64,000 bases of DNA from Anaerolineae bacterium (lineage in GTDB: Bacteria; Chloroflexota; Anaerolineae; UBA4142; SHND01): assembly GCA_020851635.1 (NCBI GenBank), contig JADZCJ010000118.1, positions 1-64,000 of the forward strand. The letters run 5' to 3'. Position 1 is the first letter of the stretch, and every line of letters starts with the position of its first letter. Below, piece after piece: positions 2,034 through 14,563 of this stretch. The translations under genes were made by a program, and so were the position numbers. A model generated the notes under the pieces. That model saw only the letters and a program-made list of their open reading frames with translations. It was not told where the DNA came from and did no database searches.

Positions 2034-2987
2034 TCAAATGACCAATGCCATCGGCATTGGGAGATCCTTGCGAAATTCCGTGAATTGATCCTTGACGTGC
2101 ATGCCTGCCCGCCGATAGAGCTGCAGTGCGCCCGAAGGATTTTCGGCGTCCACCTCCAACCCGGCATGCGGCACGCCGAGTTTATGGAGCTCGCCAAATA
2201 CAGTATCGAGCAACGCGAGACCAATCCCGCGTCCCCGCCAGGGGCGGCGGACAGCGACCTGTTGGACCCAGCCACCCAGCGAGTCATTCATCGTAATTGT
2301 CGCTCCCACCACGAGTTGGTCGTCAAGCGCCAGGTACGAGAGGTGCGGCGCGAACGCACCATGTTCGAGGACAAGCGATGCCCATTCGTCAAATGGCACG
2401 TCGTTGTGCTGCCACAAATCGCGAAACGCTTCCTGAATACACGACCAAACGAGACGGTCGTCCTCTCCTCTCACAAAGGGGCGCAAAAGAATCCTCTCTG
2501 GTACTTTTGGTCGAGTCGGGGGTTGTGTCAGGTCAATATGCATGATGAATGCATGGCGCACCGCGTGATAGCCGTGTCGCTCCATACGGTTGACTTTGAC
2601 CGGTTCCGCCGCGTTCACGACATGACGCAGAACAATTTGGCGGTCCTCGATGCGTTCGAGCGCCCATGCCTCGGCGTTCTCGAGGATCCAATCCCCCAAA
2701 ACGGTGTGTTTAAAGCGCGGGTGGACGCACGAATTGTTGTTGAGGTGAACAACCTCTCCGGCATCGTACATGTGCATATACCCTGCGAGCGTTTCGTCGG
2801 ACGCAAAAATCATCCAGGCGTCGGTTTCGAGGTCAAGTCCCTTGCGCCGCCACATTGCGAGTTGGTCCGCCAGGTTCCATTCGGGCTTGCCGAATTCGTC
2901 AATGTCGCAGGCGACGATCAGGTCAGCGACCGCTTGCGCGTCCTCCATCGTCGGGCGACGCGTGGTAAAGCCATCAGGCAGTTTCAT
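2034..2987 (-). CDS. Two-domain GNAT N-acetyltransferase
   Basis: This 317-residue protein is built from two GNAT folds, as in mycothiol-synthase-like enzymes, and should transfer an acetyl group from acetyl-CoA to an unknown amine. The N-terminal half (1-150) has a degenerate acetyl-CoA loop. The C-terminal half (160-310) has an intact one (VRRPWRGRGIGLALL) and the closing signature VDAENPSGALQLYRRAG, which is shared with three paralogues upstream and with the adjacent pseudogene. The start ATG has GGGAGG seven bases upstream. It is the last gene of the long minus-strand operon and is separated from the MFS gene by 106 bases containing a strong stem-loop. The substrate cannot be read from sequence. 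Confidence 0.85.
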   Translation of the reverse strand: MKLPDGFTTRRPTMEDAQAVADLIVACDIDEFGKPEWNLADQLAMWRRKGLDLETDAWMIFASDETLAGYMHMYDAGEVVHLNNNSCVHPRFKHTVLGDWILENAEAWALERIEDRQIVLRHVVNAAEPVKVNRMERHGYHAVRHAFIMHIDLTQPPTRPKVPERILLRPFVRGEDDRLVWSCIQEAFRDLWQHNDVPFDEWASLVLEHGAFAPHLSYLALDDQLVVGATITMNDSLGGWVQQVAVRRPWRGRGIGLALLDTVFGELHKLGVPHAGLEVDAENPSGALQLYRRAGMHVKDQFTEFRKDLPMPMALVI

Positions 2988-3093: not shown

Positions 3094-4326
3094 TTATGCC
3101 TCTGCGTTTATAGGCGCAGGACCGCGTTCAGTCGCATCTATTTTGCGTGAGTAGAGGTAGAGCGCCGGAACGAGAAACAGGGCGGCGACGACCATTTCGA
3201 CGCGCAGCGAAACGAGGGTCGCGATGGCGCCGAGGATGGGACCGCCGATCATTTGACCGAACGCGTCGGACTGGTTGCGCATGGAAAACACGGTCGCGCG
3301 CACGGATGAATCCACATGCTGGTTCAGCCACGCGGTCGCGAGCGGATAATTCATGCCGCGAATGGGATTGAGCGCGAGGACCGCCACGAGCGCGACGCCA
3401 AAGTTCCACGCCAGACCGAACACGATCATGAGAGCCATGAGCAAGGTCACGACAATTTGGAGAGAGCGCGCGACGACGACCTGATTGTTGGTGTCAACGC
3501 GGCGGTTCACAAATTCTGTCATTCCTATCCCCAGCACGAGCGAGATTGCACTGATGATGCCAATCCAGACTACAGGTTCCCAGTATGGCATCGAGTAGCT
3601 GACCAGATGCGGCACCCAGAGGCGGTCAAAGCCCTCGCTGAATGCGCCAAAGAATGCGGCTGCGATTACGAGTGTGACCAACACGCGGCGGGAACGAATG
3701 ACGCCCAAGCCCTGGCGAAAGGTATGCCCCATTTGTTGGAAATTGGACCGTTCCTCGCGGGGTTTGGGTTTGAATCCCGTCTCGGGCATGATGAGGGCAA
3801 GGATGCCTCCCAAAACAACGAGCAGCACACCACCCAACACGATCGGGATGTTGAGCGCGACCGTGCCGAGCAGGACGCTGGCGAGAATGCCGAACAGCGC
3901 ACCGGCGTTGCCAAACTGATTGCCGCGCAAGAATGCCTTGCCTGCTTTTTCCGGTCCGACCTCGTCGGCGACCCACGCTTCTTCTGCGCCGCTCATAAAG
4001 GTAACGCCGATACCCCAGATGACCTGGGCGAGCAGAATTGCCCAGAACCGGGGAATACTGCCCTCGACGATAAACCCGAGACCCACCAACACATAGCCGA
4101 TGATGATGGATAAACGGCGGCTGTAAACATCGGCGATGATGCCTGTGGGCACTTCTGCGATGAACGCGGTAAATTCCAACACCGTGCCGACGAGCACGAG
4201 TTGAAACGGATTCAAGCCCACCGTTTCGACCAGGTAGAGCGTCGAGACGGTAAAGATCACGGCGAACAACAGGGACGCCGTGAAACTCTGAAAAAGATAA
4301 ACAGGATATCCGTTGAGGCGCTTCAT
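3094..4326 (-). CDS. MFS drug-efflux-type transporter
   Basis: This 410-residue membrane protein has the hydrophobic pattern of twelve transmembrane helices and the MFS cytoplasmic loop after helix 2 (IADVYSRR, residues about 64-71). The GAEEAWVADEVG segment after helix 4 resembles DHA3-type tetracycline/macrolide exporters known from environmental Chloroflexota, so drug efflux is a reasonable inference; the substrate is unknown. Its ATG follows the rsgA stop codon by one base (TAA-C-ATG), with AGAGGCGAG just upstream inside rsgA, implying translational coupling. Its position among an ABC-F gene and many acetyltransferases supports a detoxification role. Confidence 0.85.
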   Translation of the reverse strand: MKRLNGYPVYLFQSFTASLLFAVIFTVSTLYLVETVGLNPFQLVLVGTVLEFTAFIAEVPTGIIADVYSRRLSIIIGYVLVGLGFIVEGSIPRFWAILLAQVIWGIGVTFMSGAEEAWVADEVGPEKAGKAFLRGNQFGNAGALFGILASVLLGTVALNIPIVLGGVLLVVLGGILALIMPETGFKPKPREERSNFQQMGHTFRQGLGVIRSRRVLVTLVIAAAFFGAFSEGFDRLWVPHLVSYSMPYWEPVVWIGIISAISLVLGIGMTEFVNRRVDTNNQVVVARSLQIVVTLLMALMIVFGLAWNFGVALVAVLALNPIRGMNYPLATAWLNQHVDSSVRATVFSMRNQSDAFGQMIGGPILGAIATLVSLRVEMVVAALFLVPALYLYSRKIDATERGPAPINAEA

Positions 4327-4327
4327 G

Positions 4328-5326
4328 TTAGCTCGCCTCTAACTTTTCGATGATTGTGCGATAGCTTGTATAACGCCGCGCTGATATCTCACCCGAGGCG
4401 ACCGCGTTCTTGATGGCGCAGTCGGGTTCGTGGTCGTGGGAACAGTCGTTGCCAAAACGACATTTGCCGAGATGGGGACGGAATTCGGGCAAGAGTTCGG
4501 CGAGTTCGGTGGGCTGAATATTCCAGAGAGTGAGATATTTCAAGCCCGGTGTGTCCACAACCCGCCCGCCGAAATCAAAATCATACATTTCGAGATGTGT
4601 GGTCGTGTGTTTGCCCTTGCCCGACGCACTGCTGATGTTGTTGACGCGCAACGCGAGCTTGGGCTGGAGGGCGTTGAGCAGGGTGGATTTGCCGACGCCG
4701 GACATGCCGACAAATACACTCATGCGGTCGCGCAGGATGGACTGTAAGTCCTCGATCCCCTGTCCTGTGGCGGCGCTGGTAAACAAAAGAGGGTAGCCGA
4801 TCTTGCGATACGTTTCTGCTTCGGTTTCCACCTGCTTGTCTCGCAATAGATCTCTTTTTGTAAAGACAATCAGGGAAGGGACATCTGCGTTTTCTGCGGA
4901 CGCCAGATAGCGGTCGAGCAGCTCCCAACGCGGCGCGGGCTGCGCGGACGCGACTACATGAACGAGAAAATCAATATTTGCCGCAATGACTTGCTCGGTC
5001 GGCTTGAGCCCGGGGTCCCGGCGCGCAATTTGATTGCGGCGGGGCATGACCTGCATAATGATGCCCGTTTGGTCGCCCGCGGGCAGAAACTGCACCACGT
5101 CGCCGATGGCAATCGGGTCAACGACACGAATATCGTGCACGTCAATGACACGGCGCCGGCGTGAAGTTGGCGCGGCAATCGGATATTCGAGCACTTTGCG
5201 GAGGCGCGACGAAATTTCACAGTCTACGAGATGCCCGTTAACGCGGACACCATAATGTCCAAGTGATTTTTTATATACGACCCCTTGCGCGAGTTGCGCG
5301 GCAGAGGTGTCTGATTCGAGAGTCAT
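4328..5326 (-). CDS. rsgA: Ribosome small-subunit GTPase RsgA
   Basis: RsgA is a circularly permuted GTPase that checks late 30S assembly. With the start at 5326 (AAGGAG five bases upstream) the protein has 332 residues: an OB-fold domain (about 15-110), then the permuted G motifs in the order G4 (TKRD, 156-159), G1 (GMSGVGKST, 207-215), G3 (DTPG, 258-261), and a C-terminal zinc site (C289, C295, H297/H299, C303). An in-frame ATG at 5398 gives 24 more residues that do not resemble the family; a second strong Shine-Dalgarno (AAGGAGGT) lies before it. Finding this ribosome factor inside a resistance-like operon between an MFS exporter and a hydrolase is unusual. Confidence 0.93.
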   Translation of the reverse strand: MTLESDTSAAQLAQGVVYKKSLGHYGVRVNGHLVDCEISSRLRKVLEYPIAAPTSRRRRVIDVHDIRVVDPIAIGDVVQFLPAGDQTGIIMQVMPRRNQIARRDPGLKPTEQVIAANIDFLVHVVASAQPAPRWELLDRYLASAENADVPSLIVFTKRDLLRDKQVETEAETYRKIGYPLLFTSAATGQGIEDLQSILRDRMSVFVGMSGVGKSTLLNALQPKLALRVNNISSASGKGKHTTTHLEMYDFDFGGRVVDTPGLKYLTLWNIQPTELAELLPEFRPHLGKCRFGNDCSHDHEPDCAIKNAVASGEISARRYTSYRTIIEKLEAS

Positions 5327-5405
5327 GGATTCTCCTTGAATGATTAGAGGAACGAGGCATTGCGCAGCGATTCCGGATTGAGGAGAAATTGAATACATGT
5401 TTCAT
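5271..5405 (-). CDS. Possible 44-residue upstream ORF before rsgA
   Basis: ATG 5405 has a near-perfect Shine-Dalgarno (AAGGAGGT, five-base spacing) and opens a short frame ending at TAA 5273-5271, which overlaps the beginning of rsgA in another frame. The peptide is basic and resembles nothing I know. It could be a leader or coupling ORF, or the ribosome site may simply serve rsgA from ATG 5398. Confidence 0.2.
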   Translation of the reverse strand: MKHVFNFSSIRNRCAMPRSSNHSRRIHDSRIRHLCRATRARGRI

Positions 5406-5416
5406 AGAGCACCTCC

Positions 5417-6286
5417 TTATTCTTGTGATGCTTGAAGCCAGCCGACGGTATTGGGGTCAACGTCACCGCCCAGTTCGGCATACGCGCTTTCGACGTTGCG
5501 ACGGTGCGCTTTGTGATTGTTTTCGACGGATTGACGATAGGGAATATCGGCGCACAGGGCGATTGTTTCCTGGAGGGATATGCCCGCCTTGACAGCATGG
5601 ATTACGCGTCCATGCAGTTCCGCGATATAGCGGCGGTCGTTCTCGATCCGCGCGCGAATTTCGGCGGGGTCCCGGGTCGGCGCGCCGTGACACGGGACCA
5701 ACATTCGGAAATCATCGGCGTTGATTTTTTGCATCGTATTCGTATAGTCGCCGAGATTGTCACTGACAAACGGAATTTCCTCATCGCTCAGCATATCGGC
5801 TGTCCAGACCGTGCCCGTCGCGGTTTCACGCACAAAAAGGTGGTCCGGCGCATGTCCCGGAGTGTGACAGAGTTCCAATTCCCAATCGCCAATCTCGAGG
5901 GTCATGGTCGCCCCGACCCACCGGGAAGGTTCGGGCATCTCGAACGGTCTGGTGAGGGCAAGATTGGGAGTGTTTGCAATGATTTCACGGATGCGTTGAT
6001 GATAAGTTCGCGCCTCTCTTGCAAACGCGTTATGGGCAATGACCTCTGCGCCGTTCCAGAGGTCCACCCCAAGGATATGGTCCCAGTGACAGTGAGTGAG
6101 AATGATTGCATGCACGATCCACTTGCGCGCCTCGATGAATTGCGCAATGGCATTGATTTCGGGTTCCGAGATGCCCGGGTCTACAAGCACCACATTGCCG
6201 TCATGGACAAAAATGCCGCTGTGGTAGGTGAATAGTGCGCTGGAATTGGTCCAGAGTGTGGGTGTGAGTGGGGTGAGGTCGGTCAT
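5417..6286 (-). CDS. Metallo-beta-lactamase-fold hydrolase
   Basis: This 289-residue protein has the zinc-binding MBL signature THCHWDH (His65, His67, Asp69, His70), then PGH (His145), TAD (Asp164) and PCHG (His200), so both metal sites look complete. The fold covers glyoxalase II, lactonases and beta-lactamase-like enzymes; the spacing is glyoxalase-II-like and no specific substrate can be assigned. The start ATG 6286 lies eight bases after the stop of the Eis-like gene, so the two are co-translated. A longer in-frame upstream extension exists but lies inside the preceding gene and does not look like family sequence. Confidence 0.85.
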   Translation of the reverse strand: MTDLTPLTPTLWTNSSALFTYHSGIFVHDGNVVLVDPGISEPEINAIAQFIEARKWIVHAIILTHCHWDHILGVDLWNGAEVIAHNAFAREARTYHQRIREIIANTPNLALTRPFEMPEPSRWVGATMTLEIGDWELELCHTPGHAPDHLFVRETATGTVWTADMLSDEEIPFVSDNLGDYTNTMQKINADDFRMLVPCHGAPTRDPAEIRARIENDRRYIAELHGRVIHAVKAGISLQETIALCADIPYRQSVENNHKAHRRNVESAYAELGGDVDPNTVGWLQASQE

Positions 6287-6294
6287 GTTGCTGC

Positions 6295-7650
6295 TCAATG
6301 AACCGGCATAATATGGGTTACGCGTTTCGGGAAAAGAATGTCGAGCAGAGCTTTGTTGCGGTCGCTGTCCACGATGCAATCGGGATACATATCAGCCAGT
6401 TCGACGCGCGAACGATAGCCAAACAATAGTTTCAGAAAGGTCAGGTCAGGGAACGCCGCATCGCCAAATCCCTTTTGCCCGATATCAACCGCCGTGGGCT
6501 GCCAGAGTCCGGCGACAGTCAGCTTGCCATTTTCGAATTTCACGCGCAGTCCGTTACGATAAAAGTTCAATGCAATCTCACCCGAATAGTTCCGCAGTTC
6601 CGACGCCGCGAGGCGCTGCTCCAAAACGGGCGCGATTTTCGTGAAAAATGCGGGCAGATCAGCAACGCGGATATACCAAGCATAGGGACCAAAGATCTGG
6701 GATGTTCTGCCCGCTGTGACAGTGTAGAACGGGTGGTTTGAGGAGAGATTCCACCCCAGCGACCCCAAGACCGAATTGTCCTGCCCGGCGATCTCGCCTG
6801 CCTGCCGCGCCAGCTCGCGCAGCACAAACGGTGTGACCTCATGCCACTCGAACGGCGGCTGAATTTCGTAGCAGAGTGTCCTGTGCTGTCCCTGGTGAAG
6901 ATGGCGACGGCGCATAATGACTCCGACGCGTTCGCCCTCTAGAGTTTCGATCACATCCCACCACGATTGCTGTCCGTTTAACGGGTCGGTTTCATTGAAA
7001 TTCTCATATTCGAGCGTGGCAGGGTCGCGTTCGCAGTGCAAGAGCGAACGTTTTGCCCCCAGCTTGTACATTTCTGCGACAAAAGGCAGGTCCGCAGGTC
7101 CCGCATGACGCAATTGATAATTGTCTATTTCTCCCGCGTTCAGCGTCGGAATTTGTTGGGGGACGAACGTCTGATAGGGCGCAGGCAATTCAATCGCAAA
7201 TTCGTAACCGAATTGGCGATAGTAAAAGGGAATTCCCGTTATTGCCTGGAGCAGCTCGCCGCGCTGCGCGCTCATTTCGTGCACGACGCGAAACTGTTCG
7301 CGGACCAGCCCGCGGTGGCGATACCCCGCATCCGTACCGACGATTTCTACTTGACCGACGGGAAAGGAAATCCCGTCCAGACTCCAGGTCTGGGAAATCA
7401 GGCAGAGGCACGAGACGATTTTGTTGGTGGCAGTTTCGACCACAATCAAAAAATCGTTTGGGCGAAAGGTGGGATGCTTGCCGCCCATCAAATCGCGCGT
7501 CCAGCCGCCCACATAAATCTCCAGTTCGCCGGTATCGGGATTGGCAAATGCGTGGATCTGCATTTCGACCAGCGCAGCTGTGTCCTCCACCGTGGCATGG
7601 CGCAGGATAAAACCGTTTCCAAGATCAAGAGGATTGTCAGATGTGTTCAT
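6295..7650 (-). CDS. Eis-like GNAT N-acetyltransferase
   Basis: This 451-residue protein has the three-part plan of the Eis family. An N-terminal GNAT domain carries the acetyl-CoA loop GYRHRGLVREQF (residues about 110-121). A second, degenerate GNAT-like domain follows (about 170-330), then a C-terminal sterol-carrier-like domain (about 335-451). Eis enzymes of mycobacteria acetylate several amines of aminoglycosides and polybasic peptides at many positions, so a resistance function is plausible by family. The start has no obvious Shine-Dalgarno. It is separated from the ABC-F gene by 45 bases and from the MBL hydrolase by eight. Confidence 0.85.
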   Translation of the reverse strand: MNTSDNPLDLGNGFILRHATVEDTAALVEMQIHAFANPDTGELEIYVGGWTRDLMGGKHPTFRPNDFLIVVETATNKIVSCLCLISQTWSLDGISFPVGQVEIVGTDAGYRHRGLVREQFRVVHEMSAQRGELLQAITGIPFYYRQFGYEFAIELPAPYQTFVPQQIPTLNAGEIDNYQLRHAGPADLPFVAEMYKLGAKRSLLHCERDPATLEYENFNETDPLNGQQSWWDVIETLEGERVGVIMRRRHLHQGQHRTLCYEIQPPFEWHEVTPFVLRELARQAGEIAGQDNSVLGSLGWNLSSNHPFYTVTAGRTSQIFGPYAWYIRVADLPAFFTKIAPVLEQRLAASELRNYSGEIALNFYRNGLRVKFENGKLTVAGLWQPTAVDIGQKGFGDAAFPDLTFLKLLFGYRSRVELADMYPDCIVDSDRNKALLDILFPKRVTHIMPVH

Positions 7651-7695: not shown

Positions 7696-9342
7696 CTACC
7701 GGAACATGGATGCGCGGTCCGGAAAAACGCGCAGGGTTTGGTCTTGGATTGCCCAGATGCCCGTCGCAAAGCGGTCAATGAACGCGCGGTCGTGGACGGC
7801 GACGAGAATTGTGCCCGGAAAGGCATCGAGCGCCGCCTGGAAATGTTCGCGTGACGGAATGTCGAGATGATTGATGGGTTCGTCCAAAATCAAGACATTT
7901 GATTTTTCGGTGACGAGTTTTGCGAGAATCAGGCGGGCGCGTTCGCCATAACTCAGATTGCCGATGGGCGTCAAGACCTCGCCGCCTTCAAACATGAAAA
8001 AATGCAGGAAATGGCGCGCCTCGGTTTCATCTATGGGCATCAGCGAGCGAACGAGCGCGAGAGGCGTTTGCGCCGGATCAAGCGTTTCCTGCTCCTGCGG
8101 CATGTAGCCGAGGCGGACATTCGCGCCCAACCGTATCGCCCCTTCTGTCGGCGGGATTTCACCGACAATGTTGCGCAGAAGTGTGGATTTGCCCGTGCCG
8201 TTCGGCCCAACGAGTGCGATCCGTTCGCCGTGACTCAGAACGAGCGAGGCATGGCGATAGATCCAACGTTCGCCAAAGCGCATTCCCACATCCTCAAGCC
8301 CGAGCACCATTTGTCCGCTGCGCGGCATCTCGCCAAATTCGAGTTTCATGGCGTATCCCGCTTTGGGTTTTTCGATGCGGTCGTCGGACTCGAGATAGCG
8401 GTTTAATTTTTTCTCGCGCGAAAGGGCTTTTTTGGCGACTTTTTTGGCATAACGGCGCACCGTGGGCTGCCGTGAGGTCGTGGTCTTTTCGACCCACAAT
8501 GCGTGTTCTTTGGTGCGCGCAATGTCATGTTCGAGCCGACGGATTTCTGCCTGTTGGTCCCGGTAGGCTGCCCACGTCTTTTCCAACGCGTGTTCTTTGG
8601 CATCCTCGTACGCCGTATAATCGCCGTGATAGGGTGTGAGTTGATGCGTCTCGTCGTCCAGTTCGAGAATGAGAGAGACGGTACGATCGAGAAATGTGCG
8701 GTCGTGTGAAACAATCAGCGCGGCGCCCGAATAATCGCCGAGAAAAACTTCGAGCCATTCCAGCGCTTGCATATCGAGATGATTTGTCGGTTCATCGAGC
8801 AGCAAAACGTCCGGCTCGGAAATCAACAGGCGCGCGATCCCCGCGCGGGTGCGCTGTCCCCCGCTCAATTTCTCGATGGGCAGATCACGCGACACCCGTT
8901 CCAATCCCAAACCGCGCAGAATTTCTTGGATTCGCGATTCCATGTCATAGCCGCCGAGCGTTTCAAAGCGCGCGACCGCAGCGGAATATTCATCGAGCAG
9001 GGCAACATCAGATGCGGCGTGTTCCATCCGATTGGCAAGCGCATCCATCGCGCGTTTCGCCCCATCCCATTTGCTCACACCTTGACGCACAAGGGTTTCG
9101 AGGGTGAGTTCATTCGCAAAAGACTGTCCTTGAGGGAGATAGCCCAGCGTCGTATGCGAGTCGAGACGCGAGTACCCGCTGTCGGGCTGCTCCAGCCCAG
9201 CAATGATACGGAGAAGAGTGGTCTTGCCTGCGCCGTTCGCGCCGACCAGCGCCGCGCGCTCTCGGCGATTGAGCACGAAAGATACGTCGTCCAGAATTGT
9301 GCGGACGCCGTAGGTTTTGGAGAGATGCGAGACTTGGAGCAT
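7696..9342 (-). CDS. ABC-F family ATPase (possible ribosome-protection protein)
   Basis: This 548-residue protein has two ABC domains and no transmembrane segment, the ABC-F plan. Domain 1 has Walker A GANGAGKTT (34-42), signature LSGGQ (159-163) and Walker B LLLDEPTNHLD (180-190). Domain 2 has GPNGTGKST (379-387), LSYGE (463-467) and LILDEPINHLD (484-494). A charged linker (about 240-325), the element that reaches toward the ribosomal P-site tRNA in characterised members, joins them. ABC-F proteins either tune translation (EttA, Uup) or displace antibiotics from the ribosome (Vga, Lsa, Msr). The surrounding acetyltransferases, exporter and attenuator-like leader favour the resistance type, but sequence alone cannot prove it. 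Confidence 0.9.
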   Translation of the reverse strand: MLQVSHLSKTYGVRTILDDVSFVLNRRERAALVGANGAGKTTLLRIIAGLEQPDSGYSRLDSHTTLGYLPQGQSFANELTLETLVRQGVSKWDGAKRAMDALANRMEHAASDVALLDEYSAAVARFETLGGYDMESRIQEILRGLGLERVSRDLPIEKLSGGQRTRAGIARLLISEPDVLLLDEPTNHLDMQALEWLEVFLGDYSGAALIVSHDRTFLDRTVSLILELDDETHQLTPYHGDYTAYEDAKEHALEKTWAAYRDQQAEIRRLEHDIARTKEHALWVEKTTTSRQPTVRRYAKKVAKKALSREKKLNRYLESDDRIEKPKAGYAMKLEFGEMPRSGQMVLGLEDVGMRFGERWIYRHASLVLSHGERIALVGPNGTGKSTLLRNIVGEIPPTEGAIRLGANVRLGYMPQEQETLDPAQTPLALVRSLMPIDETEARHFLHFFMFEGGEVLTPIGNLSYGERARLILAKLVTEKSNVLILDEPINHLDIPSREHFQAALDAFPGTILVAVHDRAFIDRFATGIWAIQDQTLRVFPDRASMFR

Positions 9343-9393: not shown

Positions 9394-10410
9394 CTAACCA
9401 ACCCGCTTTTCGAGAATCAAGCCGGTCTTGAAGGGATGAAAGCCGATGCGCTCATAAAGCGCCAGCGCGCCCGTGAGATTCTCGGCGTCCACGCCCAGTC
9501 CGACATTGTCCAAACCCTCTTGTTTGAACCGGCGCATGGACTCGGCAAGGAGCGCGGAAGCGATGCCCCGTCTGCGCCATTTGCGGCGTGTGCCGAGACT
9601 CCCAATCCAACCGCGTTTGATGCCGAGCCGTTCGTTTTCCTGCTGCTTGACGCGGTTGATGGAAAAGGCGACCACCTCGTCGCCATTCATCACGACCAGC
9701 GTGAGGTCGCGGCGGACGTCGGAAACATCCATGATAAAGGGGTGCCACTCGGGTTCGGTGACTTGCTGGGACCCCCAGTGATCGCTGAACGCTTCGTTAA
9801 AGGCGTCGAGCATGGACCCGTCAATGTCCTCGCCATACGTCCGCAGGGTGAGACCTGTCGGCAGTGGATTGGCGGGGACCGGTTCGTTGAGGTCGCGCTC
9901 CATTTCGAAAAAGGAACGGACATGCACAAACCCGCGTTCGGCAAAGAGAGCGAGTTTACGTGTGTCTGATTCAGGCACAAAAGTCCGAACGAGACGCGGG
10001 AGCGCACGCGCCTCGTCTGTTTGTGCGGTTTCGGTGAGCCGCTCGGTCGCGCGTTCTTGCATCCATTCGATACATTCTTGTTCGAGCCCCCGGTCTCGTT
10101 CGTCGGGGTCACACTCGCAAACCAGAAAAGCGACATTCTCGTTTTTTGGGTTGGGATTGACAAACACCCGCGCAAACGCGGCAAGTTTGCCCCGGAGCGT
10201 TCGAACGATGCGTCCATCGTTTTCGGGATTGCTCCAGGGATCGTCAAATTGGTTCTCGAGGTCGTTGACCGATTCCGTATAGTCGTTGTTGTCGTGCCGG
10301 TTGACGACCTGGAATAGTTTCCAGATATCGCGCAGGTCCTGCCGCGTAATGCCGCGCCAGGTGTGCGCTTGTTTTTGTTCAAAGGATGGAGATGCAACAG
10401 AAAAAGGCAT
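9394..10410 (-). CDS. Two-domain GNAT N-acetyltransferase
   Basis: This 338-residue tandem GNAT protein has an N-terminal domain (about 15-165) that has lost the R/QxxGxG acetyl-CoA loop. Its C-terminal domain (about 180-335) is intact (RRKWRRRGIASALL, then VDAENLTGALALYERIG). It is a paralogue of the genes at 2034, 10454 and 11501. The 43-base gap upstream holds a small perfect hairpin (10430-10445, GACGGC arms around four bases) just before the start. The substrate is unknown; the class includes MshD-type and antibiotic-modifying enzymes. Confidence 0.83.
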   Translation of the reverse strand: MPFSVASPSFEQKQAHTWRGITRQDLRDIWKLFQVVNRHDNNDYTESVNDLENQFDDPWSNPENDGRIVRTLRGKLAAFARVFVNPNPKNENVAFLVCECDPDERDRGLEQECIEWMQERATERLTETAQTDEARALPRLVRTFVPESDTRKLALFAERGFVHVRSFFEMERDLNEPVPANPLPTGLTLRTYGEDIDGSMLDAFNEAFSDHWGSQQVTEPEWHPFIMDVSDVRRDLTLVVMNGDEVVAFSINRVKQQENERLGIKRGWIGSLGTRRKWRRRGIASALLAESMRRFKQEGLDNVGLGVDAENLTGALALYERIGFHPFKTGLILEKRVG

Positions 10411-10453
10411 TGTCGTCCTCGTTTCAACAGACGGCGAAAGCCGTCGCTACAAT

Positions 10454-11473
10454 TTACAGGTTGATTTGTTTGCGAAAGACCGCGGTGGAGCGGACTTGGC
10501 GGTACCCTACTTTTTCGTACAGGTGAAAGGCGCCGGTCGCGTTTTCGGTGTCCACGCCGAGAGCTGTATGGTCAAACCCCATTTCGCGGAACATTTTCAT
10601 GCTCTTGACGAGCAGCGCTTGCGCGATCCCGCGGCCGCGCCACGGTTTGCGAACGCCGATATTTTCGGTATAACCGCGTTTGTAATTGTATTTTTCATTT
10701 TCGAGCGCCTCTACATAATTCAAGACCATGCCGACGATTTGATCGCCCTCCCACGCGACTTGCCATAGATCAGAATTCCAGCGCGGGTTATTGGCAAAAC
10801 GTTGATAATCGCTCTCGTCTTCGACGACTCGGCCCCAATGTTCGGAAAACGCCTCCCCGTCGGCATCCCAGATCGCGCGCCATTGTTCGCGATGGACGAG
10901 ACGGGTCTCGATTCCGGGTGGCAGCTCGAGGTTGGGAATGTTGTCGAGATTGGAACACACCATGTCGGCAAGGTAACGGACGGGTTGATACTCATTTTTC
11001 TGAACCAATGTCTGAAGCCAAGTCTGCGAATCGGCTACAGAGAGCTCGTACCAGTGCGTGAAATGTTGCGGATTTTGCATGGCGTAGGATCGCTGGCGTT
11101 CTTTGGTCGCTCGCAAAAGCTCGTCCTCTACACCCCGGCCGCGCCATTCCGGCAAAACAAATATCCATTGAAAATACACGAATGATTCGTCCGTTGACTC
11201 TGTCCAGCGGCCATCTGCGTAGCCGACCAATTCTGCATCCCGCTCGATTAGCAAAAGGTCGTTGGCAGCGTCAAAATTCTTGAGATCCGCATACATCAAG
11301 CGCAAATCGTCACCGGTGCGCGCCTCTTCGAGACCGTCTGCGCCGCGACTTGCGTTCAGGACCACCGCCATGCGCTCAAAATCCCCATCCTCGCGCCAAT
11401 TGCGCAGGGTCAAACCCTGTGCCTCAAGGACAGGTGGTAGAGCGGACGCTAATAGTTTGAGAGTTGCAATCAT
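10454..11473 (-). CDS. Two-domain GNAT N-acetyltransferase
   Basis: Both GNAT domains of this 339-residue protein keep an acetyl-CoA loop: VLPEWRGRGVEDELL in the N-terminal half and VRKPWRGRGIAQALL in the C-terminal half, followed by VDTENATGAFHLYEKVG. This differs from the paralogues at 2034 and 9394, where only the C-terminal loop is intact, and may mean two active sites. The start has GGAGG six bases upstream, the best ribosome site among the two-domain GNAT genes. It is closest to the next gene upstream (11501-12517), separated by 27 bases, so the pair looks like a tandem duplication. Confidence 0.84.
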   Translation of the reverse strand: MIATLKLLASALPPVLEAQGLTLRNWREDGDFERMAVVLNASRGADGLEEARTGDDLRLMYADLKNFDAANDLLLIERDAELVGYADGRWTESTDESFVYFQWIFVLPEWRGRGVEDELLRATKERQRSYAMQNPQHFTHWYELSVADSQTWLQTLVQKNEYQPVRYLADMVCSNLDNIPNLELPPGIETRLVHREQWRAIWDADGEAFSEHWGRVVEDESDYQRFANNPRWNSDLWQVAWEGDQIVGMVLNYVEALENEKYNYKRGYTENIGVRKPWRGRGIAQALLVKSMKMFREMGFDHTALGVDTENATGAFHLYEKVGYRQVRSTAVFRKQINL

Positions 11474-11500
11474 GGGTCACCTCCAAGAGATGCGTTAGGG

Positions 11501-12517
11501 TCAAACCTGAAAAGCCTTGCGGTATGCGGTCATTGTGCGGATGGGACGGTAGCCCAGTTTCCCGTAGAGTTTGAGCGCTCCCGTTCCATTTTCGGTATCT
11601 ACTTCGAGGGCAGCTTCGGTCATGCCCAGTTCTCGAAATTGTCGCAGCCCACGCGCAATCAGCGCCTGTGCCAGTCCGCGCCCGCGATACGCTTTCAACG
11701 TTGCGATGTCTTCGGTAAAGCCGCGCTTGCGGTTGTAGAGGGCGTTATCCTCCGCGTCCACGGTATTTAGAACAACAGCGACTACCCGGTTGCCGTCCCA
11801 GGCGATCTGCCACAAATCATGGCGTGTGGACGGTCGCTTGAGCCAGAGTTCGTATGCCTCGTCCGTGTGCTCGGTTTCGCCCCAATGTTCGCTAAAAGCG
11901 TCAATCATCGAGAGCCAAATCGCATGCAAATGACCCGGCTCGACGGCGCGAACCTCGATGCCATCGGGCAGCGGCGCGCCCGGAATGTCACCAAGATTGG
12001 GACGCAGCATCGTATAAAAGTAACGGACCGGCGCGTACCCCTCCTGTTCCAGCAAATGTGTGAGGTCCCTCTGTAGATTGTCGAGAAATACCTGAAACGC
12101 CTTTGGCGCTTGCGCCGGATGTGTTGCCGCAATTTCGCGCAGGACTTGCTCGCTGTGGCGAATCATTGCCAGTCCGATGCCGCGCTTTTTATACTCGGGC
12201 AGGACAGAGCCGTGATGGTTATAGCAATATTGTCCGACGGCTTCGGGATAGCCGCGCAATGTTTTGTACGCCACCGCCTCGCCCGCTGCCTCCACCAGAA
12301 ACACGCCGCGCTTGATATCCATGTTTGGCATGGTTTCCAGATTGGACTTGAGGTCGTCCGCCGAGATGGATTCTTCGATCCCCAGCGAATGTCTGTCGGC
12401 ATGAACGATGCGGCGCATTTTTTCATAGTCCGAATCGTCACGCCAGCCGCGCAAGGCGAAACCTGCGGGCAAGCCGGCAGGCGCAAAAGTGACTGCTCCC
12501 GTAATGTTCTGGTTCAT
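11501..12517 (-). CDS. Two-domain GNAT N-acetyltransferase
   Basis: This is a 338-residue tandem GNAT protein. The N-terminal loop is VLPEYKKRGIGLAMI and the C-terminal loop TLKAYRGRGLAQALI, followed by VDTENGTGALKLYGKLG. The shared order and the conserved WGE/DLWQIAWDGN region show that it and the 10454-11473 product are recent paralogues relative to the other two-domain copies. GGGAGC lies seven bases before the ATG. It follows the last RimL-type gene by 30 bases in the same operon. The substrate is not predictable. Confidence 0.84.
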   Translation of the reverse strand: MNQNITGAVTFAPAGLPAGFALRGWRDDSDYEKMRRIVHADRHSLGIEESISADDLKSNLETMPNMDIKRGVFLVEAAGEAVAYKTLRGYPEAVGQYCYNHHGSVLPEYKKRGIGLAMIRHSEQVLREIAATHPAQAPKAFQVFLDNLQRDLTHLLEQEGYAPVRYFYTMLRPNLGDIPGAPLPDGIEVRAVEPGHLHAIWLSMIDAFSEHWGETEHTDEAYELWLKRPSTRHDLWQIAWDGNRVVAVVLNTVDAEDNALYNRKRGFTEDIATLKAYRGRGLAQALIARGLRQFRELGMTEAALEVDTENGTGALKLYGKLGYRPIRTMTAYRKAFQV

Positions 12518-12547: not shown

Positions 12548-13102
12548 TCAGTCATGTTCTTGGCGTGCTTGCCATTCGCTCCGCAGGATGCCCATTGAAA
12601 CGAGGTCCTCTCGCTTGCCGCCGCGGTGTTCGGTGCCGCGTGTTCCACCTTCGTGGACAAAGCCGACCTTGACATACGAGCGGATGGCTGGCGTGTTGGT
12701 GCTGACGGCGTCCAGTGAGACGCGGTGCAGGTTCAGTTCGAGAAACGCAAAACGCAGAACTACGTTCATGGCGTCACTGCCGTAGCCCTTGCCGCGATAC
12801 TCGCCATCGCCAATTCCGATTCCGACAAAGGCATCGCCCTGCACATGATCCACATGCATCAAAACGACAAAACCAATCAGCTTGTCATCATTGAGCGTGC
12901 GGACGCCAAAGGGATAAAATTTAGGGTTTAGCTCGCGCTCGACCATTTTGCGAACGGCTCGGCGGTCCGGTGGCGTCACCGGCTCGACCGACAAGAGACG
13001 GTTATAGTGCGTGTCCCGATCCCAACCGGCAATCGTCTCAACGTCGCGCTCATCCCGGGCAGTCAGGCGCACCAATTTCCCTCTCAACAGATGCTCATGC
13101 AT
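12548..13102 (-). CDS. RimJ/RimL-type GNAT N-acetyltransferase
   Basis: This 184-residue single-domain acetyltransferase belongs to the RimJ/RimL branch, which includes acetylases of ribosomal protein N-termini and antibiotic-modifying enzymes. It has the acetyl-CoA loop GEYRGKGYGSDAM (about 106-118) and the branch-typical LNLHRVSLDAVSTNTPAIRS segment. ATG 13102 overlaps the end of the preceding gene by eight bases (ATGCATGA), so the two are translationally coupled. It shares a nearly identical C-terminus (VSMGILRSEW) with the product of 13095-13658, showing that the two arose by duplication. Confidence 0.85.
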   Translation of the reverse strand: MHEHLLRGKLVRLTARDERDVETIAGWDRDTHYNRLLSVEPVTPPDRRAVRKMVERELNPKFYPFGVRTLNDDKLIGFVVLMHVDHVQGDAFVGIGIGDGEYRGKGYGSDAMNVVLRFAFLELNLHRVSLDAVSTNTPAIRSYVKVGFVHEGGTRGTEHRGGKREDLVSMGILRSEWQARQEHD

Positions 13103-13658
13103 TTTGAATTCTTTCCCATTCCGAACGGAGGATGCCCATGGAAACAAAATCGCCGCGCTTGCCGTAGCGGCGCATGGCTTGACGTATCACGCCTTCGTGG
13201 ACAAAGCCGACTTTTTCATAGGACCGAATCGCGCGCGGGTTGATGGAAAACGTAAACAGGTTCACGCGGTGCAGATTCAGCTCTAGAAAACCAAAGGCGA
13301 GGATCAGATTCATCGCATCGGTCCCGTAACCCTTGCCCCAATAATCGCGTTCGCCGATGCCGATGGCAACCCATGCGTTGTGGTGCGCGGTGTTGGCGTC
13401 AAAAAGTGAGGTCATGCCGATGAGATGGTCGTCCGCGAGCGTCCGGATCATGAAATTGTAGCTGCCATGGCGGTGTCTTTCTTCTTGACTTGTGAACCAT
13501 TCCTGCGTTTTTTTGACATCGCGCAGCATGGGCGCTTCGGTGTCCCACAATTGCATAAACTCGGTGTCGCGCGACCATTTGGCATAAGCTTGTCCCATCG
13601 CGTCGGGTGAGGCGGCGTCCAGGCGCGTGAGTTTGCCGGTATACAGATTTTGGTTCAT
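13095..13658 (-). CDS. RimJ/RimL-type GNAT N-acetyltransferase
   Basis: This 187-residue acetyltransferase carries ERDYWGKGYGTDAM as acetyl-CoA loop and LNLHRVNLFTFSINPRAIRS downstream. The frame is open far upstream, but the real start is ATG 13658: it overlaps the preceding stop as ATGA, and the protein then begins with the family-typical YTGKLTRLDA. It is the middle gene of three RimL-type paralogues joined by 4- and 8-base overlaps. Which amine it acetylates is unknown. Confidence 0.86.
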   Translation of the reverse strand: MNQNLYTGKLTRLDAASPDAMGQAYAKWSRDTEFMQLWDTEAPMLRDVKKTQEWFTSQEERHRHGSYNFMIRTLADDHLIGMTSLFDANTAHHNAWVAIGIGERDYWGKGYGTDAMNLILAFGFLELNLHRVNLFTFSINPRAIRSYEKVGFVHEGVIRQAMRRYGKRGDFVSMGILRSEWERIQNA

Positions 13659-14233
13659 TGTGCGGTGTCCTCGGCGGGATTTTTGGCGCGCCACTCGTCC
13701 GCCAGAATGCCATATGTCAGCGCATCCCAGTAGCGCCCGTCCCGATAAATCGCTTCGCGGCGACGCACTTCGAGCTGAAAGCCGTGTTTGGCAAGAAATT
13801 TCTGCGCCCCGGTGTTGTATTCGAATGTAAACACTGTCAGGCGATACAGGTTTAGTTCCTCGAACGCATAGCGAAGTATCATTTCGATTGCTTGGCTCCC
13901 CATGCCTTGACGGCGGTCGTCGGGTGAACCGATACCCATGTTGAAATGCGCGTTGCCATGATTCCACTCGATCCAAAAGATGTGGGCAAAACCGATGACG
14001 CGGTCGTCCGCCTGGGTGCGAATCACGAAATAATACAAGGCGTGCCCCGCCTCTTTTTCCATCTCTTCAAATCTCTTTTTGATGTGATATGGCGAAAGAG
14101 GGCGCGCCGGTTCATGGTCAACGAGGCGCAAATATGTCGGGTCGTTCGTCCATTTGGCAAAGATTTCGGCGTCCCGGTCGGCGTCAAACGCCGCGAAACG
14201 GATTTTTTTACCTTCAAAGAGTTGCAAGACCAT
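13655..14233 (-). CDS. RimJ/RimL-type GNAT N-acetyltransferase, first gene of the operon
   Basis: This 192-residue acetyltransferase is the promoter-proximal structural gene of the cluster. It has the loop SPDDRRQGMGSQAIEM (about 104-119) and LNLYRLTVFTFEYNTGAQKF. ATG 14233 is preceded by AAGGAG with a four-base spacer. The 5' leader (about 295 bases) contains a leader ORF and two intrinsic terminators, the second ending only about 30 bases before this start, so its expression must depend on read-through. Its stop overlaps the next start (ATGA). The best guess is a small-molecule or ribosomal-protein acetylase in a resistance setting. Confidence 0.86.
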   Translation of the reverse strand: MVLQLFEGKKIRFAAFDADRDAEIFAKWTNDPTYLRLVDHEPARPLSPYHIKKRFEEMEKEAGHALYYFVIRTQADDRVIGFAHIFWIEWNHGNAHFNMGIGSPDDRRQGMGSQAIEMILRYAFEELNLYRLTVFTFEYNTGAQKFLAKHGFQLEVRRREAIYRDGRYWDALTYGILADEWRAKNPAEDTAQ

Positions 14234-14262: not shown

Positions 14263-14290
14263 AAAAAAACCACGAGCAGGGCGCCCGTGG
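14263..14290 (-). terminator. Leader terminator T2 before the GNAT operon
   Basis: Transcribed on the minus strand, CCACGGGC pairs with GCTCGTGG (eight pairs, one G-U) around a five-base loop and is followed directly by seven T. It lies between terminator T1 and the first GNAT gene, downstream of the operon promoter, so it can only act as an attenuator for that gene or as a back-up terminator for readers from upstream. Confidence 0.85.
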
Positions 14291-14328
14291 CATGCCTTTC
14301 ACGATCAGGTTGGGTCGGGAAAAGGGAC

Positions 14329-14362
14329 AAAAAAACCACGGGCTATCAGTGTCGCCCGTGGT
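14329..14362 (-). terminator. Leader terminator T1 before the GNAT operon
   Basis: The minus-strand RNA forms ACCACGGGC/GCCCGTGGT (nine perfect pairs, ten-base loop) followed by seven U. The 5' arm CCACGGGC is identical to that of T2, so the T1 3' arm could pair with either 5' arm. It starts 22 bases after the stop codon of the leader ORF, a distance at which a stalled or terminating ribosome could influence folding. Confidence 0.88.
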
Positions 14363-14384
14363 GAAAAATCAATCGCGAGAATCG

Positions 14385-14486
14385 CTAGCGATGGTCAACA
14401 GGCGCACCGGTACAAGGTACCACAGCATCGCCGCCCTTGGGGGTGCGGTTGATGCGAGTGAATCCTTGAGAAAAAGTGTAAATCAT
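14385..14486 (-). CDS. Putative 33-residue regulatory leader peptide
   Basis: ATG 14486 is preceded by a consensus AGGAGG (14501-14496) with a nine-base spacer and lies about 40 bases after the predicted transcription start. It encodes 33 residues beginning MIYTFSQGFTRINR and ending GAPVDHR. The stop codon lies within a 12-base palindrome (14381-14392). No similarity to a metabolic protein is apparent, and no run of a single amino acid marks it as a biosynthetic-operon leader. The combination of a strong ribosome site, a short ORF, two terminators and then resistance-like genes matches leaders that sense ribosome-targeting antibiotics. Its function is inferred from this context only. Confidence 0.6.
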   Translation of the reverse strand: MIYTFSQGFTRINRTPKGGDAVVPCTGAPVDHR

Positions 14487-14534
14487 CAGTATGCGCCTCC
14501 TGTGGGGAAAGATTCCGTCACAAGAACGAGAGTT

Positions 14535-14563
14535 TTTATATCATGGATTGGGGCGGGTGTCAA
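14535..14563 (-). promoter_or_regulatory. Consensus sigma-70-type promoter of the GNAT operon
   Basis: On the minus strand TTGACA (14563-14558) is followed after exactly 17 bases by TATAAA (14540-14535). Transcription should start near 14528 and read through the leader ORF and both terminators into the acetyltransferase genes. It lies downstream of the LysM-protein stop, so it serves only the operon. It is one of the two best promoter matches in the window. Confidence 0.85.

Follow-up and report, generated by a model that had tools for sequence, protein, structure and literature searches.

A conserved leader peptide and two coupled terminators form a putative ribosome-controlled attenuator before a likely antibiotic-resistance operon in Anaerolineae

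We analysed a 64,000-nucleotide stretch of DNA from an Anaerolineae bacterium (hereafter the window), in which a short leader ORF and two tandem terminators on the minus strand precede a run of twelve genes. We consider it likely that this leader is a ribosome-controlled transcription attenuator which controls a 12-gene resistance operon through six RNA segments with alternative pairings, in response to a ribosome stall, most likely drug-induced, at a conserved Gly-Gly-Asp (GGD) motif. The best reading of the sequence is ribosome-mediated transcription attenuation of the ermK/bmrCD/trp kind, with a leader peptide that is new, two terminators of which the first would control the second, and a leader that would serve two operons. 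A translation-controlled attenuator before resistance genes, made up of leader peptide and terminators and following the logic of ermK and bmrCD, had already been suggested in a first-pass annotation, and as a sequence-based proposal it is now well supported by the conservation of twelve leaders and by the genes downstream. The anatomy, conservation, pairing potential and gene content of the system are read directly from the sequences.

The leader promoter (14535..14563, minus strand, as for all features of the leader) consists of TTGACA at 14563-14558, a 17-bp spacer and TATAAA at 14540-14535, and a TG at 14543-14542 gives it an extended -10 element (TGn-TATAAA). It is followed by a Shine-Dalgarno sequence, AGGAGG (14496..14501), and a leader ORF of 33 codons, MIYTFSQGFTRINRTPKGGDAVVPCTGAPVDHR (14385..14486), which has homologues in every congeneric genome, two per genome. 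On reading the sequence, promoter, AGGAGG and ORF were all found where the first-pass annotation had placed them, and they recur in five congeneric genomes; TTGACA and TGnTATA are kept in the alignment of 6/6 leaders of the same class (GNAT class, see below), as is GGAGG. Inside the ORF lie the GGD codons (14427..14435), the proposed stall site, with conserved amino acids and free Gly codons, and a conserved 21-nt element, TGTACCGGTGCGCCTGTTGAC (14394..14414), which encodes the peptide CTGAPVD, includes RNA segment 2 and fits TGTAYNRGTGYGCCTGYTGAC in 12/12 leaders. The stop codon was originally described as part of a 12-base palindrome; the TAG does lie in ATCGCTAGCGAT (14392-14381), but that palindrome is specific to the window, and the conserved feature is a hairpin, AUCGC-N11-GCGAU (14372..14392; arms 14392-14388 and 14376-14372), which carries the stop codon in its loop and pairs in 100% of cells across six genomes.

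Terminator T1 (14329..14362; stem 14362-14335, U7 14335-14329) starts 22 nt past the stop codon and T2 (14263..14291; stem 14291-14269, U7 14269-14263) 44 nt past T1, a distance earlier given as about 45. Their shared 5' arms, both CCACGGGC, and their U7 tails were likewise seen in the sequence as first reported, and both terminators recur in the five congeneric genomes, where the T1 stem pairs at 100% over the six-genome set and T2 is backed by sequence, terminator scan and six-genome pairing. T2 was the top terminator-like match in a scan of 8 kb, which missed T1 for the sole reason that its loop measures 10 nt. The pattern CCACGRGC-N0-16-GYYCGTGG-T5 occurs at T1 and T2 only in the whole 5.8-Mb genome (reversed control, 0), and we therefore rejected the idea that the CCACGGGC arms are a genome-wide terminator convention. 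The fold of the leader beats 200/200 shuffles (z -2.85), and Rfam gave no match in the window above the gathering score.

A search with the leader peptide returned homologues in 5/5 congeneric genomes, so that the genus set of six genomes (that of the window and these five) contains 12 leaders, per genome one GNAT-class and one ABC-class, with the consensus …GGD-x4-CT[G/S]APVD-x(1-2)-stop. GNAT-class loci consist of promoter, ORF, T1, T2 and then a GNAT gene, the congeners matching the window, and ABC-class loci of promoter, ORF, a single terminator and a two-subunit ABC exporter, the solved relatives of which include BmrC/BmrD. The window's own genome also holds an ABC-class leader (L072); this second copy before an ABC exporter was absent from the first-pass annotation, as was the complementarity of the T1 3' arm to the T2 5' arm. 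Homologous loci that keep the terminators without the ORF, which that annotation had regarded as speaking against an attenuator, were looked for within the genus and none was found, ORF and terminators always occurring together. In all 12 homologues a short ORF, with frame, GGD and stop position kept in the predicted translation, lies between promoter and structural gene, and 12/12 carry by sequence one (ABC class) or two (T1 and T2, GNAT class) intrinsic terminators between ORF and structural gene.

Outside the genus, a degenerate DNA pattern for GGD-x4-CT[GS][AV]P[VA]D found no match among 84,980 species genomes; its 10 matches all fall in five Chloroflexota (Anaerolineae) genomes of the genus, one per class in each. 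The six genomes contain exactly 12 copies of the 21-nt element, with one further match at 2 mismatches, and a search of the phylum with the leader alignment yielded weak matches only: of seven regions read, six were without leader architecture and one was the exporter leader of the window's own genome. Mobile spread of the leader was rejected, as its motif was not found in viral contigs and it had no plasmid match. Genomes of the sister family retain tandem GNAT genes, and in the two out of five with a readable upstream side (G008 and G010) neither leader nor terminators precede them; judged from these two, the GNAT genes may predate the attenuator. In the same two genomes, GNAT genes related to those of the window sit directly behind an ABC ATPase gene (L094 in G008, L093 in G010).

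The ABC-class leaders have two further features. In 6/6 of them (L072, L022, L024, L026, L028, L030) a two-codon mini-ORF, AUG-NNN-UAA, with a variable middle codon (CGU, AGU, AAU, AUU), overlaps the leader start (UAAUGAGC; about columns 177-190 of alignment A3), and may couple re-initiation to the leader. Their 5' UTR also contains, upstream of the leader ORF, a conserved hairpin, GUUUUGACAA...UUGUCnGAAC (A3 columns 123-133 / 158-168), which the GNAT class does not have.

The six segments of the GNAT-class leader offer mutually exclusive pairings. Segment 1, AGGCGCAU (14491..14498), pairs with segment 2 in 97.9% of cells over six genomes, with a single compensatory change from G-C to A-U in G004, and would hide the leader Shine-Dalgarno sequence in the OFF form. 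Segment 2, CGGUGCGCCUGU (14398..14409), is the 3' end of the ORF and the putative antiterminator strand; its partner, segment 3 (ACGGGCG-a-CACUG, 14347..14359), was delimited by alignment and pairing counts and comprises the T1 5' arm and loop. The 2:3 pairing, which dominates the folding of the transcript before the terminator is made, is possible in 6/6 GNAT leaders (segment 2 as RGUGYGCCUGU) and holds in 94.4% of cells in this class and 96.1% in the ABC class; R has changed from G to A opposite a U, and therefore both states pair in 5/6. In the ABC class the ORF end pairs with a different terminator arm in another register (UGCG-c-CUG-u-UGAC with GUCACAG-u-CGCA), and duplex energies range from -15 to -22 kcal/mol. 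Synonymous-codon controls for 2:3 were strong in the ABC class (duplex 0-1/300) and weak in the GNAT class (44-88/300). An antiterminator suggested earlier, CUGUGG (14425-14420) with CCACGG, is broken in 5/6 genomes and pairs fully in the window alone, and we have dropped it. Segment 4, GCCCGUGGU (14335..14343), is the T1 3' arm and segment 5, GCCACGGGC (14283..14291), the T2 5' arm, the latter placed by alignment, pairing counts and folding; 4:5, the predicted ON pairing, is complementary in 6/6 genomes and 100% of cells, as are T1, T2 and the stop-codon hairpin, of which the last is compatible with 2:3. When the partner was slid by 1-3 columns as a control, pairing fell to 21-47%.

By sequence, 4:5 is thus an alternative to T1 and T2 in 6/6 genomes, with covariation at one pair, which is C-G in the window and G001 and U-A in the other four genomes; at this position the 5' partner in T1 is always G and the 3' partner in T2 always U. 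The window genome and G001 are not sisters (0.998 in the combined tree, with which the ABC-protein tree agrees), and therefore at least two double changes took place at this pair; the GNAT tree alone leaves their relation unsettled. Covariation was seen in this pair and in the compensatory change in 1:2, but the events are few and most helix positions invariant because the set consists of six related genomes, and shuffle controls were not decisive. These data also bear on the view that T1 and T2 are two ordinary tandem terminators which insulate the operon from an upstream gene or promoter, with a small ORF that is translated and not regulatory. In its favour, terminators often occur in tandem, and the likeness of T1 to T2 suggests a local duplication, from which the complementarity of 4 and 5 would follow without further cause. 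We nevertheless give insulation a very slight probability. With the leader promoter placed after the upstream gene and ahead of T1 and T2, the transcript that these terminators act upon is that of the leader; in 6/6 genomes the ORF is accompanied by the terminators at a conserved spacing, the ORF 3' end is also complementary to the very dissimilar terminator arm of the exporter operon, and the C-G/U-A covariation at 4:5 is needed by neither T1 nor T2.

To follow the attenuator through its states, the RNA left uncovered by the ribosome was folded with ViennaRNA at 37 C. With the ribosome edge at GGD and the terminator 3' arm still unmade, 2:3 was dominant in 12/12 leaders (10-13.7 pairs), and with the P-site at the Cys codon, about five codons past Asp, it was down to 0-3 pairs; 2:3 is conserved and, computationally, predicted only with a ribosome before the Cys codon. 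With the ribosome at the leader stop, T1 forms. Once 2:3 is in place and before the T2 3' arm is made, 4:5 forms in 6/6 (8.7-8.9 of 9 pairs); after that arm is made, 4:5 persists in three genomes and T2 partly recovers in the remaining three. The terminator is more stable at equilibrium than 2:3 in 11/12 leaders (ddG 4-14 kcal/mol), and antitermination would therefore have to be kinetic. Folded without a ribosome, the window leader and both leaders of G003 (GNAT and ABC) are predicted to adopt 2:3 and not 1:2; the predicted default in the untranslated state thus differs between leaders, and 1:2 may not be a dependable one.

From these elements we infer a ribosome stall, located at GGD and caused by a drug, that would decide on termination as follows. 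An unhindered ribosome would reach the leader stop and cover segment 2, leaving the T1 5' arm, 22 nt past the stop, free, upon which T1 (3:4) and T2 (5:6) would form and transcription would end; after release of the ribosome, segment 2 could pair with the leader Shine-Dalgarno region (1:2). A ribosome stalled at or just before Gly-Gly-Asp would have its leading edge just short of segment 2, which could then pair with the T1 5' arm (2:3), and the T1 3' arm so released would pair with the T2 5' arm (4:5), such that both terminators would fail in a single event and the GNAT and ABC-F genes would be transcribed. The ABC exporter operon would follow the same logic with the same leader and one terminator, and a single signal, most likely an antibiotic that targets the ribosome, should induce both operons.

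Whether the peptide itself matters in this switch can be judged from codon use. In a codon comparison of leader pairs, GGD shows 0.00 amino-acid versus 0.38 synonymous differences per codon, and CTGAPVD 0.07 synonymous and 0.13 amino-acid differences, the latter mostly via transitions; CTGAPVD moreover uses locally rare codons (CCT 14%, GTT 19%, GGT 16% and AGT 6% of their own families), of which CCT, GTT and RGT are nearly fixed. Selection therefore seems to act on the amino acids of GGD but on the nucleotide sequence at the 3' end of the leader ORF. GGD is also the sole invariant feature in the leader region before segment 2. Compared by eye with arrest motifs quoted in papers or generally known, the leader was not found to have one in common with ErmCL, ErmBL, ErmDL/MefAL, MsrDL, BmrB, TnaC or SecM (e.g. 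R/K-x-R/K at the stall site), and to our knowledge GGD is unlike any known arrest motif. The main competing explanation is a generic translation-rate sensor, as proposed for bmrB of B. subtilis, in which any slowing of the leader ribosome lets 2:3 form, the identity of the peptide does not matter and many drugs would act as inducers. It would account for the formation of 2:3 in most leaders with the ribosome at any position between roughly six codons ahead of GGD and two beyond it and for the constraint on CTGAPVD as RNA and not as peptide, and bmrCD does work without a dedicated arrest peptide (PMC4191407). We regard such a sensor as rather unlikely, given that none of the 12 leaders departs from GGD although its Gly codons vary, that the motif keeps a fixed spacing of 4 codons to CTGAPVD (5 in one leader) just inside the permissive zone, and that the ABC leader of G001 is permissive only at -2 to +2 around Asp.

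The genes behind the leader, all on the minus strand, fit a stall caused by a drug. The first structural gene (13655..14233, Shine-Dalgarno AAGGAG 14243-14238) encodes a GNAT acetyltransferase (PF13302, 4e-18) that is 74-80% identical in the congeners, and domain matches identify a second (13095..13658) and third (12548..13102) GNAT acetyltransferase and three GNAT proteins of 338-339 aa, each most likely containing a pair of GNAT domains (9394..12517; 12517-11501, 11473-10454 and 10410-9394). These are followed by a ribosomal-protection-like ABC-F protein (7696..9342; NF000355, 433 bits against an NCBIfam cut-off of 380), the closest solved structures of which are EttA, then VmlR/ExpZ, PoxtA and Vga, a GNAT protein with an Eis-like Acetyltransf_9 domain (6295..7650; PF13527, 1e-15), present in the congeners, and a metallo-beta-lactamase-fold hydrolase (5417..6289; PF00753, 1e-20). 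The last three genes encode, by domain or family match, the GTPase RsgA (4328..5398), an MFS efflux protein resembling TetA(P) (3094..4326; NF000043, 4e-95, under the family cut-off) and a further GNAT acetyltransferase (2034..2987). Strand and spacing suggest that the 12 genes, 14233-2034, would form one transcript, and the congeners show the same gene order within the limits of the available sequence. On their annotation they are likely antibiotic-resistance genes, and such an attenuator in front of ABC-F and GNAT genes points to ribosome-acting drugs. The idea that RsgA is a resistance paralogue like HflXr was rejected as unsupported, since no second copy was found in the genome; as a ribosome-assembly GTPase inside a resistance operon, RsgA may be under the attenuator or under its own promoter. 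The MFS protein, near TetA(P)/Tet(40) and below the cut-off, is a possible tetracycline-type exporter, and just past the last gene of the operon an ISL3-type transposase (PF01610, 111-1685) lies on the opposite strand.

This gene content also weighs on an amino-acid attenuator, in which the tandem Gly codons (or Asp, Cys) would report charged tRNA like Trp-Trp in trpL. The two adjacent Gly codons are precisely at the position from which a stalled ribosome would leave segment 2 free, and the three-segment logic is that of trp, but the run of regulatory codons is no longer than two and the downstream genes encode acetyltransferases, ABC-F and exporters, not amino-acid biosynthesis, which makes this explanation improbable.

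Drug-responsive attenuation, the reading we prefer, would have several consequences. The leader is conserved across the genus and would place an exceptionally large number of genes for acetyltransferases, ribosome protection and efflux under its control, and as it is common to two operons it would define a post-initiation regulon held by one leader peptide. The peptide-constrained GGD and an RNA-constrained antiterminator strand one footprint downstream would make a clean separable design, the domino of two terminators a simple route to lower leakage, and the attenuator may point to a natural product encountered by these uncultured bacteria. More tentatively, and with somewhat more doubt than confidence, we propose a new drug-sensing arrest-peptide family (x-V-x-G-G-D) in Chloroflexota that would act at a single codon on two operons that are not linked and be followed by nucleotides forming a shared antiterminator strand which fits two unrelated terminator sequences, 2:3 and then 4:5 toppling two terminators in the larger operon. 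The literature searched contained no antibiotic-responsive attenuator from Chloroflexota, those found being mainly from Firmicutes.

Among known systems, the trp attenuator alternates 1:2, 2:3 and 3:4 according to ribosome position. The window leader shares this alternation and, unlike trp, has no run of regulatory codons, adds a second terminator through an extra 4:5/5:6 pair and has likely resistance genes as targets. As the ermK attenuator of Bacillus licheniformis (Kwak 1991) is described in PMC4335068 and PMC5418344, a short leader ORF and two adjacent intrinsic terminators there precede a resistance gene, and a stall favours the antiterminator, as we propose here; the peptides are unrelated, and ermK, so described, guards one rRNA methylase, whereas the window leader would guard a 12-gene operon. 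In the bmrB-bmrCD system of Bacillus subtilis a translated ORF likewise controls an intrinsic terminator, the antiterminator is again less stable than the terminator and the switch is said to be kinetic (PMC4191407), and one of our two target operons encodes a BmrC/BmrD-like ABC exporter. The bmrB terminator, however, falls within the ORF, for which no dedicated arrest motif is described (PMC4191407), whereas in the window the terminators lie past the stop codon and GGD is conserved. The leaders of mefA/mel and msrD also place a leader peptide and an intrinsic terminator before an ABC-F gene, a drug-stalled ribosome preventing termination (PMC4335068, PMC10314930), but their peptides, MTASMRLR and MYLIFM, are unrelated to that of the window and they have a single terminator. 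Finally, msrDL stalls at its own stop codon, whereas the RNA logic of the window leader would need a stall some 7 codons before segment 2.
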